Shown one piece after another: positions 50,146 through 58,672 of a stretch of 64,000 nucleotides of DNA. Under the pieces are notes generated by a model, which saw nothing but the letters and a program-made list of their open reading frames with translations, was not told the DNA's origin and ran no database searches. Position numbers and translations under genes: made by a program. Source of the stretch: Pseudomonadota bacterium (GTDB taxonomy: Bacteria > Bdellovibrionota > UBA1018); contig JAIXQO010000002.1 in assembly GCA_027485695.1 (NCBI GenBank), forward strand, positions 434,001 through 498,000, written 5' to 3'. Position 1 is the stretch's first letter; each line of letters starts with the position of its first letter.

Positions 50146-50382
50146 CTATAGCCGAGCTTTAGATCTCATCCCTGGAACAACACCCAAATTTAGCCATCGT
50201 TCGATTCGCATGTCGCGACGAGCTTCTTTGAGTTCGTCAGATGTTTTTTGTTCTTCAACCTTGTCCGTCTGGGATTCAGTTCGCTGAGAGTTCAGTGATT
50301 CAGATGCAACAGTGAATGGAACAAACAAAACCATGACGAACGCAACGAGGGACACTTTTAGTATATTCAGCTGATTGAACAT
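50146..50382 (-). CDS. Small exported protein with C-terminal WLxxGxxPGxRxxAR motif (copy 2)
   Basis: The 78-residue product has a signal peptide (cleavage after TVAS or nearby), an acidic/polar linker and a basic C-terminal end with W63 starting the motif WLNLGVVPGMRSKARL. The last 16 residues align without gaps with the small protein at 51706-51945, sharing W, L, G, P, G, R, A and R. AGGAGG precedes the ATG. A LysR-type box lies 71 bp upstream. The stop is 6 bp from the rsh stop, with a TCGGCT/AGCCGA hairpin at the junction. Function unknown; a secreted peptide precursor is a reasonable idea. Confidence 0.75.
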   Translation of the reverse strand: MFNQLNILKVSLVAFVMVLFVPFTVASESLNSQRTESQTDKVEEQKTSDELKEARRDMRIERWLNLGVVPGMRSKARL

Positions 50383-50453
50383 GATTCTATCCTCCTAAAT
50401 CCAGACTGCCTTTAGTCCTGATTTTTTAAAAATACATAAAAAGTAAATTATGA

Positions 50454-50468
50454 TTCCCTAAAAACGAA
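50454..50468. promoter_or_regulatory. LysR-type box upstream of small secreted protein copy 2
   Basis: TTC-N9-GAA, which contains the T-N11-A core bound by LysR regulators. Between it and the gene lies the AT-rich block TTTTTATGTATTTTTAA (minus strand), nearly the same as at the 51945 gene. Half-sites are less symmetric than in the other two copies. Confidence 0.55.
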
Positions 50469-50516
50469 CTACCCTGTCAAAAACAAATCTTATTGCTCGA
50501 TGCTCGCATTACCCAT

Positions 50517-51533
50517 TTAGAGCAACGTGCCGCTCAGCCACATCCCAAAAGAAACACTATCCTGCCAAGGCTGAACCGGACGAGATCCCGCCATTTCACG
50601 TCTCAGACCGTTGTCCCATGGCCCCGACCCACGAATATGAGGATAGATCGAGAGCATTTGCGACAGTTGATAGGTGTACCCAATGTCTACCGGAGCAAAC
50701 CAACGCTTCATCGAATCCCAGTTTGCGTTTTTCCGGTAGTCGACCAAAACTCCTGCACGCAGTCCATGCCGATCATTGAACGCATAGTTGATGCTCGGAT
50801 TAAACGACAGAACGATTTCTGGTTTGGTGCCCGGAGCTAACCCCTGAATCACATCTTGGCGGGCGCGGGCCATTGAGTCTCGATAGATAAAAAATCGAGG
50901 TGTCGTCAGCATAAACAGGCTCCACCTGGAACCTGCAGGTGCATAAGAAACCGAAGTAAACAATCCTGGTGTAACGATGGCTGTTCGCTCAGTAGGTATC
51001 TGGCCCAGTCCTGGGACATCGGTATTCACCGCACCGGTCCAAGACCATTCTCTCGTTTTCAGGAGCTTGCCGGAAACTCCGAGTCGACCACCTTGGTCGC
51101 GAAACTCCCACTGATTCGTCAGAACTTTTTCGATGCGGGCTTGATAGTCTAAGGCTAGCCTCTCACTAAACTTGATACGCGCAGAAAAATTGGTCCAAAT
51201 CGTCCAACCAATATCAGATCGATTTCCCATTTCATTGGGAGACTCACTCCAGGGCTGACCGATCCCAGGACCATCAAAAAAAGAAAAGTACGTGAATCCA
51301 ACATATTTTCGTGCTTGATCGATCCAGGTGGATTCTTTCGCAAGCGCGCTCGTTCCGTCCGGCCGTGGTCCTCTCCCCACATCTAAATTCTGAGCAGGCG
51401 TATTCGCAGAAGTCGCTGAGACTCCGGAACCAGTGGGATTTGCTCGCGCCTCCCTCCCAAACTGAGGAACTAGTACTATCAAGTAGAAAAACAAAGCGGT
51501 TCGAAAAACAAAGCGAGCTCGATAAACTTTCAT
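50517..51533 (-). CDS. Probable outer-membrane beta-barrel protein
   Basis: The 338-residue product (ATG at 51533 with AGGAG eight bases upstream) has a signal peptide (cleavage after EARA), a low-complexity linker and then many amphipathic strands with aromatic girdle residues (IGWTIWTNFSARIKF, LALDYQARIEKVL, APVDIGYTYQLSQML). It ends SVSFGMWLSGTLL, a fair terminal barrel strand. No family was recognised. It sits between the two paralogous small secreted proteins on the same strand as the ABC-HlyD-TolC genes, which suggests a role in the same envelope pathway. Confidence 0.65.
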   Translation of the reverse strand: MKVYRARFVFRTALFFYLIVLVPQFGREARANPTGSGVSATSANTPAQNLDVGRGPRPDGTSALAKESTWIDQARKYVGFTYFSFFDGPGIGQPWSESPNEMGNRSDIGWTIWTNFSARIKFSERLALDYQARIEKVLTNQWEFRDQGGRLGVSGKLLKTREWSWTGAVNTDVPGLGQIPTERTAIVTPGLFTSVSYAPAGSRWSLFMLTTPRFFIYRDSMARARQDVIQGLAPGTKPEIVLSFNPSINYAFNDRHGLRAGVLVDYRKNANWDSMKRWFAPVDIGYTYQLSQMLSIYPHIRGSGPWDNGLRREMAGSRPVQPWQDSVSFGMWLSGTLL

Positions 51534-51632
51534 CGCAAATTCTCCTAGTTGAGGAGGGACCTCTGAGACGAGTACCAAAAAAACTCAAAAGTGAATCATC
51601 GATAAAAGCGATTCGAACTTTCAGAAAAAACA

Positions 51633-51694
51633 AATCACGAGCCCCTTTGGTCGATGCCTGTTCTTAGAAAAGGCAAGACTAGGAGCTCGTGATT
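51633..51694 (-). terminator. Hairpin terminator after small secreted protein copy 1
   Basis: AATCACGAGC and GCTCGTGATT form a perfect 10-bp stem around a 42-base loop that contains an inner TGCCT/AGGCA stem. On the minus strand it is followed by TTTGTTTTTTC. It begins 11 bp after the stop codon, so copy 1 is probably made as a short separate transcript. Confidence 0.75.
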
Positions 51695-51705
51695 AGAATG
51701 AGGGA

Positions 51706-51945
51706 TTAGAATCTTGCGTGTGCTCTAGCTCCAGGCAAATAGCCTTGCTCAAGCCACATTTTAGTTCGGCGCTCACGAACGCGATCGCTGTGATCCGTCC
51801 GGCGTTCGCTTTCGCCATGGACTTCGATTTTCTCGGTACTGATCTCACTCGCATAACTTTTTTCGGAAGCCAGTGAAACAGCAGGAATTGCAGCAACCAA
51901 CCCGGCCAACAGCGAAACCACCACAAACACTATATTTCTTTTCAT
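51706..51945 (-). CDS. Small exported protein with C-terminal WLxxGxxPGxRxxAR motif (copy 1)
   Basis: From the ATG at 51945 (GGAG ten bases upstream, chosen over the ATG at 51969 which precedes that site) the product has 79 residues: a signal peptide (cleavage after SLA-SE or VSLA), an acidic linker, an Arg-rich stretch (ERRTDHSDRVRERR) and the end WLEQGYLPGARAHARF starting at W64. This end is the same length and pattern as in the paralogue at 50146-50382. A perfect LysR-type palindrome lies 70 bp upstream and a terminator follows, so it is an independent, probably strongly expressed unit. Confidence 0.78.
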   Translation of the reverse strand: MKRNIVFVVVSLLAGLVAAIPAVSLASEKSYASEISTEKIEVHGESERRTDHSDRVRERRTKMWLEQGYLPGARAHARF

Positions 51946-52015
51946 CGTTCTTTCTCCTGAAATAACCATGCTTGAAACTGATGATTATTTAAAATAGATA
52001 AAAACGACTAAATAA

Positions 52016-52030
52016 TTCACTTAAAGTGAA
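52016..52030. promoter_or_regulatory. LysR-type palindrome upstream of small secreted protein copy 1
   Basis: TTCACTTAAAGTGAA is fully symmetric (extended to 17 bp as 8-1-8) and fits TTC-N9-GAA. The minus-strand sequence downstream, TTTTTATCTATTTTAAA, is shared with copy 2. It also lies 21 bp past the TolC stop and might weakly terminate that transcript. Confidence 0.65.
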
Positions 52031-52050
52031 TCATAGTTTTTCACATCAAA

Positions 52051-56225: not shown

Positions 56226-57113
56226 ATGAAAAAGTGGATCAACTATCACCACCTCTACTACTTTAAGGTGATTGCCGAAGCGGGCAGCATCTCCGAAGCC
56301 TCTAAAATTCTTCGTATCGGCCAGCCGACTCTCAGTTCCCAATTAAAACAATTTGAAGACCAGCTCGAGCAACAGCTGTTCGAAAGAGCTCACAAAAAAA
56401 TGACGCTCACCGAGAGCGGGAAAGTTGCTCTGGAGTACGCGCGAGAAATTTTCAGACTCGGAAGCGAAATGACCAAGACATTTTCCGACCAGGAAACGCC
56501 CCACCGTCTCAGACTCAATATCGGAGCAACAGATAACATCCCAAAACACATTGCCTACCAACTCGCCTCACGCGCGCTCAAAGACAAAAACTGCATCGTC
56601 CAGATGTCCGAAGGCAGCGACCAAGACATGATCGAACAACTCCTCAGCCACAAGATTGACTTGGTGATCACCAATCACAGCCTCCAAACCCAAGGGGATC
56701 AAAAGCTCTTCGTTCGAACGATTGCACAAGATCAGGTGATCTTTTGCGCATCGCCGGCCTGGAAAAAGTTAGGAAAAAAGTTCCCCCAGTCTTTGAACGG
56801 GACTCCGTTCATCATGCCTCACCGGCAAAATCAGATCCGTCCATTGATCGAGCACTACTTCGAAAAAAATTCGATCCTTCCGGAACTGGTAGCTGAGGTT
56901 CAGGACACGAGTCTCCTGAAAATATTTGCAACCGAAGGCGTCGGCGTGATTCCAATCGCCTCTTCGGCAGCAACTCCACTCATTAAAAAGGGCGACCTCA
57001 TTCAAATCGGCGAGGCCGCGGGCATTAGCGAACCCATCTATCTGGCATCAGCTCAAAGAAAGTTCCAAAATCCAGTAGCCAAAATGCTCTGGACTGAATT
57101 TGCTATTCGCTGA
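56226..57113 (+). CDS. LysR-family regulator, NhaR-like (first copy)
   Basis: The 295-residue protein opens with WINYHHLYYFKVIAEAGSISEASKILRIGQPTLSSQLKQFEDQL, the NhaR-type start of the LysR HTH (residues 5-65), followed by a substrate-binding domain of two Rossmann-like lobes. The effector is unknown. It is divergent from the ABC-HlyD-TolC genes and its upstream palindrome recurs before both small secreted-protein genes, so it is the best candidate for their regulator. Confidence 0.92.
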   Translation: MKKWINYHHLYYFKVIAEAGSISEASKILRIGQPTLSSQLKQFEDQLEQQLFERAHKKMTLTESGKVALEYAREIFRLGSEMTKTFSDQETPHRLRLNIGATDNIPKHIAYQLASRALKDKNCIVQMSEGSDQDMIEQLLSHKIDLVITNHSLQTQGDQKLFVRTIAQDQVIFCASPAWKKLGKKFPQSLNGTPFIMPHRQNQIRPLIEHYFEKNSILPELVAEVQDTSLLKIFATEGVGVIPIASSAATPLIKKGDLIQIGEAAGISEPIYLASAQRKFQNPVAKMLWTEFAIR

Positions 57114-57144
57114 ATCTACGGCTGTTAGTGCTCGTACTCAACCT

Positions 57145-57690
57145 TCAAAAATTGACGATATCCAATCGAGCGACGTCGTTTTGAATTCTCTCCATCGAAA
57201 ACCCGATGAGTCGGCAGAGAATCACAGCCCTTAAAAAGTGGTCCAGATTCTTGATTTCACTCGATGGCCAGTATTCTTCTTCGACGCCCATCACCCAGAG
57301 GCTCACGCTACCGCGCGTGCGGTTCACCCATGCGTATCCAGAACCGCTCGGGAGCTTTTTGAGAACATTGCCATCCTGTTCGAAATCAAGAATCCAGAAA
57401 ATGGGAAGATCCAACCAGCGCAGTCGATTAAAAATTTCTTCATTCGAATAACCGACGACTAGATGGTCGAAATTGTTTCTGAGCTTTTCTGCGCTCATCG
57501 CAGAAACAAACTGTTCTTCGGTAATCATCAAAATTCGCTCAGAATTTTCGAGCCTTACCCGAAGCATATCTGGATGAATCAACAACGACATGACGTCAAA
57601 AACCTCGTCGCGGACTATCCCTTGAATCACCACTCGATGACGCATTAATTCATTTTTAGTAGGATTCTTTGTGTTTTCATTTACTTTCAT
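57145..57690 (-). CDS. Protein of unknown function between two LysR genes
   Basis: From the ATG at 57690 the product has 181 residues, with no signal peptide or membrane helix. It is rich in Arg, Asp and Leu with segments such as LENSERILMITEEQFVSAM and RLRWLDLPIFWILDFEQDGNVL. I do not recognise a family. It is convergent with the first lysR gene and divergent from the second, with about 80 bp of AT-rich promoter between. GC content is lower than in the core genes, and transfer of this block is possible. Confidence 0.6.
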   Translation of the reverse strand: MKVNENTKNPTKNELMRHRVVIQGIVRDEVFDVMSLLIHPDMLRVRLENSERILMITEEQFVSAMSAEKLRNNFDHLVVGYSNEEIFNRLRWLDLPIFWILDFEQDGNVLKKLPSGSGYAWVNRTRGSVSLWVMGVEEEYWPSSEIKNLDHFLRAVILCRLIGFSMERIQNDVARLDIVNF

Positions 57691-57772
57691 AAATTGATCA
57701 TCCCAGATGCGTCTCCGCTTCGTGAATTTAATAATATTAAACTCTAACCTAAATATTTTTAAGTAACCCGCT

Positions 57773-58672
57773 ATGACATGGATCAACTACAATCAACTCT
57801 ACTATTTTTATGTAATTGCTTCGGAACTCAGTATTGCCAGGGCCGCCGAAAAAATGCGACTCACTCCAGCGAATTTGAGCATTCAGTTGAAGCAACTCGA
57901 GGAAGCATTGAATACGCAGTTGTTTGATCGAACCAAGAAGGGACTTTCACTCACCCGTAACGGTGCGCTCGCCCTTCGTCATGCCAAAACGATGTTCAAT
58001 TCGAGTGACGCCTTGGTGAAAGAGATTGCCGAAACGACCAGCCAGAACCGTGACATCATGAAGATCGGTTCGATCAGCGGCATTTCTAAGAGCGTGCAGT
58101 TTGAATTGATTCAGCATTTTTTTGAGTGCGATTCTACTCGCATCGAGTTTCACGAAGAGTCTGCCGACAGCTTGCTTGAGAAGCTTTCGAAAAATGAGAT
58201 CGATGTCGTTCTTACCAATCATCCACTCAGTCATCCAAGCGCCGTTATTCAAAACGTTCCTTTAGCTGACTATGAAATATTTGCCGTCGCCGCTCCCAAC
58301 TACGCTAAAATTGCCTCGACCTCGCAGAATGGGAGAACTCCAGTTTTTATAGCCAAAAACTGCGCCTACCGCGAGCACGTGAACCATTGGATCGAAAACA
58401 ATTCACATTCCTATGCGATCAAGGGTGAAATCGACGACGTCGTCCTTCTTCGTATCACCGCTAGTTCTGGCAAGGGCGTCGCCCTCCTCCCATCGATCGT
58501 CGTTCGACATGAACTACTCAATCAAACACTCCAGATCATGGACCATATCCCAAATGCGCGAGAGTACTTTTTTCTCTCAGTCAATGCATCAACGACTCTG
58601 CATCCTCTCATATCGAGTGTCGTAGAAAAATTCAGCACTCCGCAGCCCAATATTTTTTCTTCAAATCACTAG
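57773..58672 (+). CDS. LysR-family regulator, NhaR-like (second copy)
   Basis: The 299-residue protein begins WINYNQLYYFYVIASELSIARAAEKMRLTPANLSIQLKQLEEAL and shares the NhaR-like layout with the regulator at 56226, of which it is a diverged paralogue. The bestrophin gene follows 9 bp downstream, so it may be co-transcribed. I find no TTC-N9-GAA palindrome directly upstream, only a TTTAAT/ATTAAA half-symmetric sequence, so its target may differ. Confidence 0.9.
   Translation: MTWINYNQLYYFYVIASELSIARAAEKMRLTPANLSIQLKQLEEALNTQLFDRTKKGLSLTRNGALALRHAKTMFNSSDALVKEIAETTSQNRDIMKIGSISGISKSVQFELIQHFFECDSTRIEFHEESADSLLEKLSKNEIDVVLTNHPLSHPSAVIQNVPLADYEIFAVAAPNYAKIASTSQNGRTPVFIAKNCAYREHVNHWIENNSHSYAIKGEIDDVVLLRITASSGKGVALLPSIVVRHELLNQTLQIMDHIPNAREYFFLSVNASTTLHPLISSVVEKFSTPQPNIFSSNH

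Follow-up and report, generated by a model that had tools for sequence, protein, structure and literature searches.

Several described bacterial systems combine protein export with a conserved C-terminus. Double-glycine and other bacteriocin or microcin precursors are small proteins with a conserved C-terminal part that leave the cell through tripartite ABC-HlyD-TolC exporters; bacteriocin precursors carry a double-glycine leader and are handled by an exporter with a C39 peptidase. Cationic antimicrobial precursors contain a strongly cationic amphipathic segment. Sorting tags of Gram-negative bacteria, such as PEP-CTERM, GlyGly-CTERM, and the type IX CTD, are conserved C-terminal segments of exported proteins and consist either of a hydrophobic anchor followed by a basic tail or of a long beta CTD. 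Finally, lineage-restricted small exported proteins are short, have a signal peptide and a disordered linker, and belong to no database family.

The stretch of DNA analyzed here (64,000 nucleotides, referred to as the window) encodes two mini-proteins, miniA and miniB, that can be compared with each of these systems. Unlike bacteriocin precursors, they have an apparent Sec-type signal peptide, the ABC protein encoded nearby shows no peptidase domain in Pfam, and this exporter is not linked to such small genes elsewhere. Their C-terminal 30 residues carry a charge of only +3 with a hydrophobic moment at shuffle level, in contrast to the segment of a cationic antimicrobial precursor. Where sorting tags have an anchor or a beta domain, the mini-proteins have a 16-residue tail counted from a Trp, with no hydrophobic stretch, and only two or three proteins in the genome carry it. 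Being short, with signal-peptide-like N-termini, a predicted disordered linker, and no database family, they are comparable to lineage-restricted small exported proteins and differ from these in general in that a paralogous pair plus a third relative reveal the constrained part.

Two Small Proteins With Predicted Signal Peptides

The miniA gene (50146-50382, minus strand) encodes a protein of 78 aa, MFNQLNILKV...ERWLNLGVVPGMRSKARL, is preceded by the ribosome site GGAGGA, and has its stop codon 6 bp from the stop of the convergent rsh gene. The miniB gene (51706-51945, minus strand) encodes 79 aa, MKRNIVFVVV...KMWLEQGYLPGARAHARF, counted from the ATG at 51945, with the ribosome site AGGAGAAAG ahead of it. 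The open reading frame list agrees with the initial annotation, which had described products of 78 and 79 residues. Judged by eye and by hydrophobicity, both N-termini look like signal peptides. A rule-based reading of the sequence predicts cleavage at A26|S27 in both proteins, as TVA26|S27 in miniA (signal peptide at 50305..50382, minus strand) and SLA26|S27 in miniB (51868..51945, minus strand). After this predicted cleavage the mature proteins would comprise about 52-53 residues, and miniA and miniB are apparently small Sec-exported proteins. At the opposite end, a motif search located the C-terminal modules WLNLGVVPGMRSKARL of miniA (50146..50196, minus strand) and WLEQGYLPGARAHARF of miniB (51706..51756, minus strand), both intervals including the stop codon.

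Constraint on the C-Terminus

Exactly as proposed in the initial annotation, both proteins end gap-free in WLxxGxxPGxRxxAR[FL], with the Trp 16 residues from the end (position -16) and Phe or Leu as the last residue before the stop. When a looser form of the DNA motif plus stop was allowed up to three mismatches, miniA and miniB were its only matches in the window, both with 0 mismatches, and 0/100 shuffles contained two matches. Aligned without gaps, the C-terminal 16-mers are identical at 8/16 positions and reach a BLOSUM62 score of 45. None of 200,000 shuffles of one of the 16-mers attained this score; among random pairs of real protein C-termini, 567 of 2,000,000 scored at least 45, a figure that overstates chance because the pool of real C-termini contains true homologues. 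The likeness had been described as confined to the C-terminus, with different signal peptides and linkers, and alignment of the separate regions bears this out: z was 9.8 for the last 23 residues (ungapped), 0.1 for the signal peptides, and 1.4 for the linkers, with 13.8 for the full-length proteins.

The codon usage of the two genes points to selection on the protein sequence of the C-terminus. Over the last 24 codons the proteins share 11 symbols, 8 of which are written with different synonymous codons and 3 with identical ones; at first, second, and third positions the two genes agree in 12/18/5 of the 24 codons. This pattern points to a protein kept by selection since an old duplication, with third positions that have become saturated. 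The constraint on the C-terminus is real and consistent with a functional segment at this end of the proteins. A comparison of two to three sequences does not fully separate conservation from slow drift. Alternatively, miniA and miniB could be orphan genes, either young or drifting fast, that do little or nothing for the cell, and their C-terminal likeness would be the slowest-drifting remnant of a duplication. The very narrow distribution of the genes would agree with such an origin. However, saturated third positions next to retained second positions (12/18/5 of 24) are not expected of drift, and the strong ribosome sites, the terminator, and the conserved upstream block described below also speak against it; we regard this explanation as quite unlikely.

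An Orphan Family With a Diverged Third Member

In the organism's own 4.05-Mb genome, the motif pattern and a profile of the C-terminus retrieved only miniA, miniB, and one diverged candidate, miniC (G000:C6:79614-79859, equivalent to L038 1474-1719). This frame of 82 aa is preceded by a ribosome site, begins with an apparent signal peptide, and ends in ...QVRKWLNSGYVNSGKLNSE; near its end it reads R..VRKWLNSGYV, with the Trp 15 residues from the end. The E-value of miniC was 0.35 at the first pass of the own-genome search, and its later E-value follows by construction, miniC having by then been included in the profile. Considering its small frame, its signal peptide, and the position of the Trp, miniC is a likely but not certain diverged member of the family. 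It lacks the PGxRxxAR tail and keeps only R/K...WLxxGY[LV]; the putative core of the wider family would thus comprise no more than a basic helix followed by WLxxGY[LV], and the PGxRxxAR[FL] tail would be specific to the pair. A match of miniC to PHROG 24056 (E 0.014) received no backing from the phage search and was rejected. The neighbors of miniC are a methyltransferase-like gene on one side and a Dps/ferritin-like gene on the other.

The own-genome result bears on the suggestion of the initial annotation that the shared ending might be a C-terminal recognition tag, that is, a sorting signal by which a dedicated machine handles a set of exported proteins. A motif that is gap-free and placed exactly at the C-terminus of two proteins with unrelated linkers is in line with such a tag. 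Yet a tag system needs many clients, and the motif and profile searches found only the pair plus the diverged miniC in 4.05 Mb and no tagged set in the phylum. Since even the core is limited to three proteins, a sorting tag is disfavored, and we consider it highly improbable.

A profile search of the C-terminus across the phylum had been suggested as a check. Run over 369 phylum genomes, this search gave weak matches and no credible relative outside the own genome; each of the matches examined was antisense or internal or lacked a start, and the best-looking one (L128) lies antisense to a glycosyltransferase gene. The DNA motif pattern, applied to 369 genomes of the phylum, was found free of mismatches only at the two window copies. 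Six other matches, with two mismatches each, did not exceed the reversed-pattern control, and none had the motif in an open frame. A protein search of 58 genomes of the class returned chance-level matches only, many of them with stops or within other frames. Among GTDB genome contigs, the strict motif pattern gave three chance-like matches and no mini-gene, two of the matches being out of place in their frames and one lacking an in-frame motif. Viral contigs, phages, and plasmids yielded no credible mini-protein relative; Pfam, NCBIfam, PHROG, PADLOC, and PDB contain no family fitting miniA or miniB; Rfam gave no match, and a literature search nothing on point. The mini-proteins are thus short, occur as paralogues, and have no wider homologues, as is characteristic of a lineage-restricted small protein family. 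We conclude that miniA and miniB form a true and clearly bounded orphan family of small, apparently exported proteins, which as it stands is one more well-supported orphan small-protein family, useful mainly for annotation and as a target for experiments.

Upstream Regions and Gene Neighborhood

Reading downwards from 56139 on the minus strand, the window encodes an ABC protein, an HlyD-type adaptor, a TolC-type protein, miniB, OMP, and miniA. OMP (50517..51533, minus strand), a presumed outer-membrane barrel of 338 aa, therefore lies between the two mini-genes. The ABC, HlyD, and TolC genes have overlapping frames; their operon, encoded on the same strand as miniB, lies upstream of that gene and ends roughly 100 bp before it.

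A 46-nt block upstream of miniA (50423..50468, minus strand) is identical to a block upstream of miniB (51985..52030, minus strand) at 32/46 positions without gaps. This likeness was reached in 0/500 shuffles, and in the genome the block is present at these two places only. Probably, then, the promoter region was copied along with the gene when miniA and miniB arose by duplication. An intrinsic terminator 3' of miniB (51633..51694, minus strand) has a 14-bp outer stem and a U-rich tail (-37.4 kcal/mol, z -6.1), and the strength of this terminator suggests that miniB is probably transcribed on its own. Upstream of miniB stands a perfect 8-1-8 inverted repeat, ATTCACTT-A-AAGTGAAT (52015..52031), to which nothing else in the genome is comparable; this palindrome is a candidate regulator site. 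The 12-mer ATGATTCACTTT has exactly two exact copies in the window, one in the upstream region of miniB and one upstream of the OMP gene (51588..51599, minus strand), which is suggestive of common regulation.

These elements are relevant to the possibility that the mini-proteins serve the ABC-HlyD-TolC exporter or OMP as small accessory or regulatory factors and share a regulator with it, one candidate being the divergent LysR-type gene at 56226. Adjacency on the same strand, the palindromic site upstream of miniB, and the 12-mer found ahead of both miniB and the OMP gene all agree with such a role, as does one other genome (L041), in which the exporter again lies together with OMP and a LysR gene. 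On the other hand, miniB has a terminator and an upstream block of its own, many genomes have OMP and the exporter without mini-genes, and miniC is located elsewhere in the genome beside the Dps-like gene. An accessory role is therefore rather unlikely in our estimation. No mini-gene was seen beside OMP or exporter homologues in other genomes of the class, so the local association is not conserved and says little on function.

In L041 (10187-12107), the ABC gene of the exporter seems to be cut short and joined in frame to the beginning of the HlyD gene, whose own frame is in pieces; either decay or an assembly error may account for this. Beside the divergent exporter operon of the window, the region 56226-58672 contains two LysR-type genes on the plus strand with an unassigned ORF of 213 aa on the minus strand between them.

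The Exporter and a Possible Peptide Precursor

The initial annotation had also proposed a peptide precursor. Spelled out, the proteins would be exported by Sec, the acidic linker would be cut off, and a basic C-terminal peptide of about 20-30 residues would be released, perhaps crossing the outer membrane through the adjacent ABC-HlyD-TolC exporter, to serve as a signal or to act against bacteria. The part of this proposal that stands is the C-terminal constraint, to which conservation is limited. In addition, charge is bipartite, with -2 in the linker and +3 in the C-terminal 30 or so residues, the exporter operon ends close to miniB on the same strand, and the best NCBIfam scores of the ABC protein are to type I secretion LssB and bacteriocin exporter models, although these scores are far below the cut-offs. 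The remainder of the proposal fared less well. The net charge of the mature proteins is weak (about +1), and the hydrophobic moment of the C-terminal helix is no better than in shuffles; a non-amphipathic helix with a net charge near +1 argues against a typical antimicrobial peptide. The proteins contain no Cys and no conserved cleavage site or recognizable processing site. Pfam assigns only ABC_membrane and ABC_tran to the ABC protein above cut-off, and no peptidase domain. Moreover, ordinary type I substrates do not use Sec signal peptides, and the exporter adaptor gene is present in 16 of the 58 genomes of the class, own included, with no such neighbor seen beside the others. A peptide precursor is thus doubtful. 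It is improbable that the mini-proteins represent a new class of Sec-exported precursor, in which one regulator would control the system and the C-terminal 20 or so residues would be released and exported by the adjacent ABC-HlyD-TolC proteins to serve as a signal or to act against bacteria. If the peptide reading were true, it would describe a kind of secreted peptide that is so far undescribed.

Structure Prediction and a Putative Docking Module

An AlphaFold model of miniB built from two sequences consists of the signal helix at residues 2-31, a disordered linker, a second helix at 51-66, and a C-terminal loop. Confidence in the model is low (mean pLDDT 63, pTM 0.25, linker pLDDT about 50), with only two sequences in the input. 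WLxxG followed by hydrophobic residues and a Pro would be expected of a capped helix end (Schellman-type caps). The junction between recognition helix and wing in MerR/excisionase (HTH_17-type) proteins has the form R..[WI][LI]..G.LP..R and resembles the mini-proteins in its basic helix, Trp or Ile followed by Leu, two residues, Gly, a hydrophobic residue, Pro, and a basic residue. In contrast to MerR/HTH_17 proteins, the mini-proteins begin with apparent signal peptides and have no recognizable helix-turn-helix ahead of the motif, and Pfam searches with the full mini-proteins and with C-terminal fragments gave no MerR/HTH_17 match (C-terminal 30 residues, E up to 10). Membership in this group was rejected, and the likeness was judged to be common helix-cap geometry.

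The best explanation of the locus, to which we give about an even chance of being correct, is a paralogue pair with a conserved C-terminal docking module on a drifting linker. According to this explanation, miniA and miniB, which flank the OMP gene, are old paralogues from a duplication that probably extended to the promoter region. As modeled, the linker would be disordered and the C-terminus would form one short helix ended by a Trp-Leu-x-x-Gly cap, a Pro-Gly turn, and a basic tail. We infer that the mini-proteins act in the periplasm or at the envelope, where the C-terminal module may serve as a docking piece that binds one partner common to both. The acidic linker would give only reach and would thus be free to drift. 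Because of its position and the common upstream 12-mer, the neighboring OMP would be the most obvious candidate partner. However, OMP homologues elsewhere have no adjoining mini-protein, so that this link is not conserved, and miniC, which is without the PGxRxxAR tail, and the low model confidence count against docking more generally. If docking were true, the mini-proteins would illustrate how small an exported binding module can be, with some 16 helical residues, a Gly cap, and a PG turn carried on freely drifting linkers in a poorly studied lineage.

OMP itself has no match in Pfam, NCBIfam, PHROG, or PDB. Its homologues occur in 12 of the 58 genomes of the class, own included, and are 31-44% identical with many invariant columns; presumably, they form an uncharacterised outer-membrane protein family. 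Structure prediction without an alignment reached a pLDDT of 33. The signal-peptide region of the OMP gene (51486-51527) contains 2.4 copies of a 17-bp repeat, and since this unit is not a multiple of three, slippage would shift the OMP frame.
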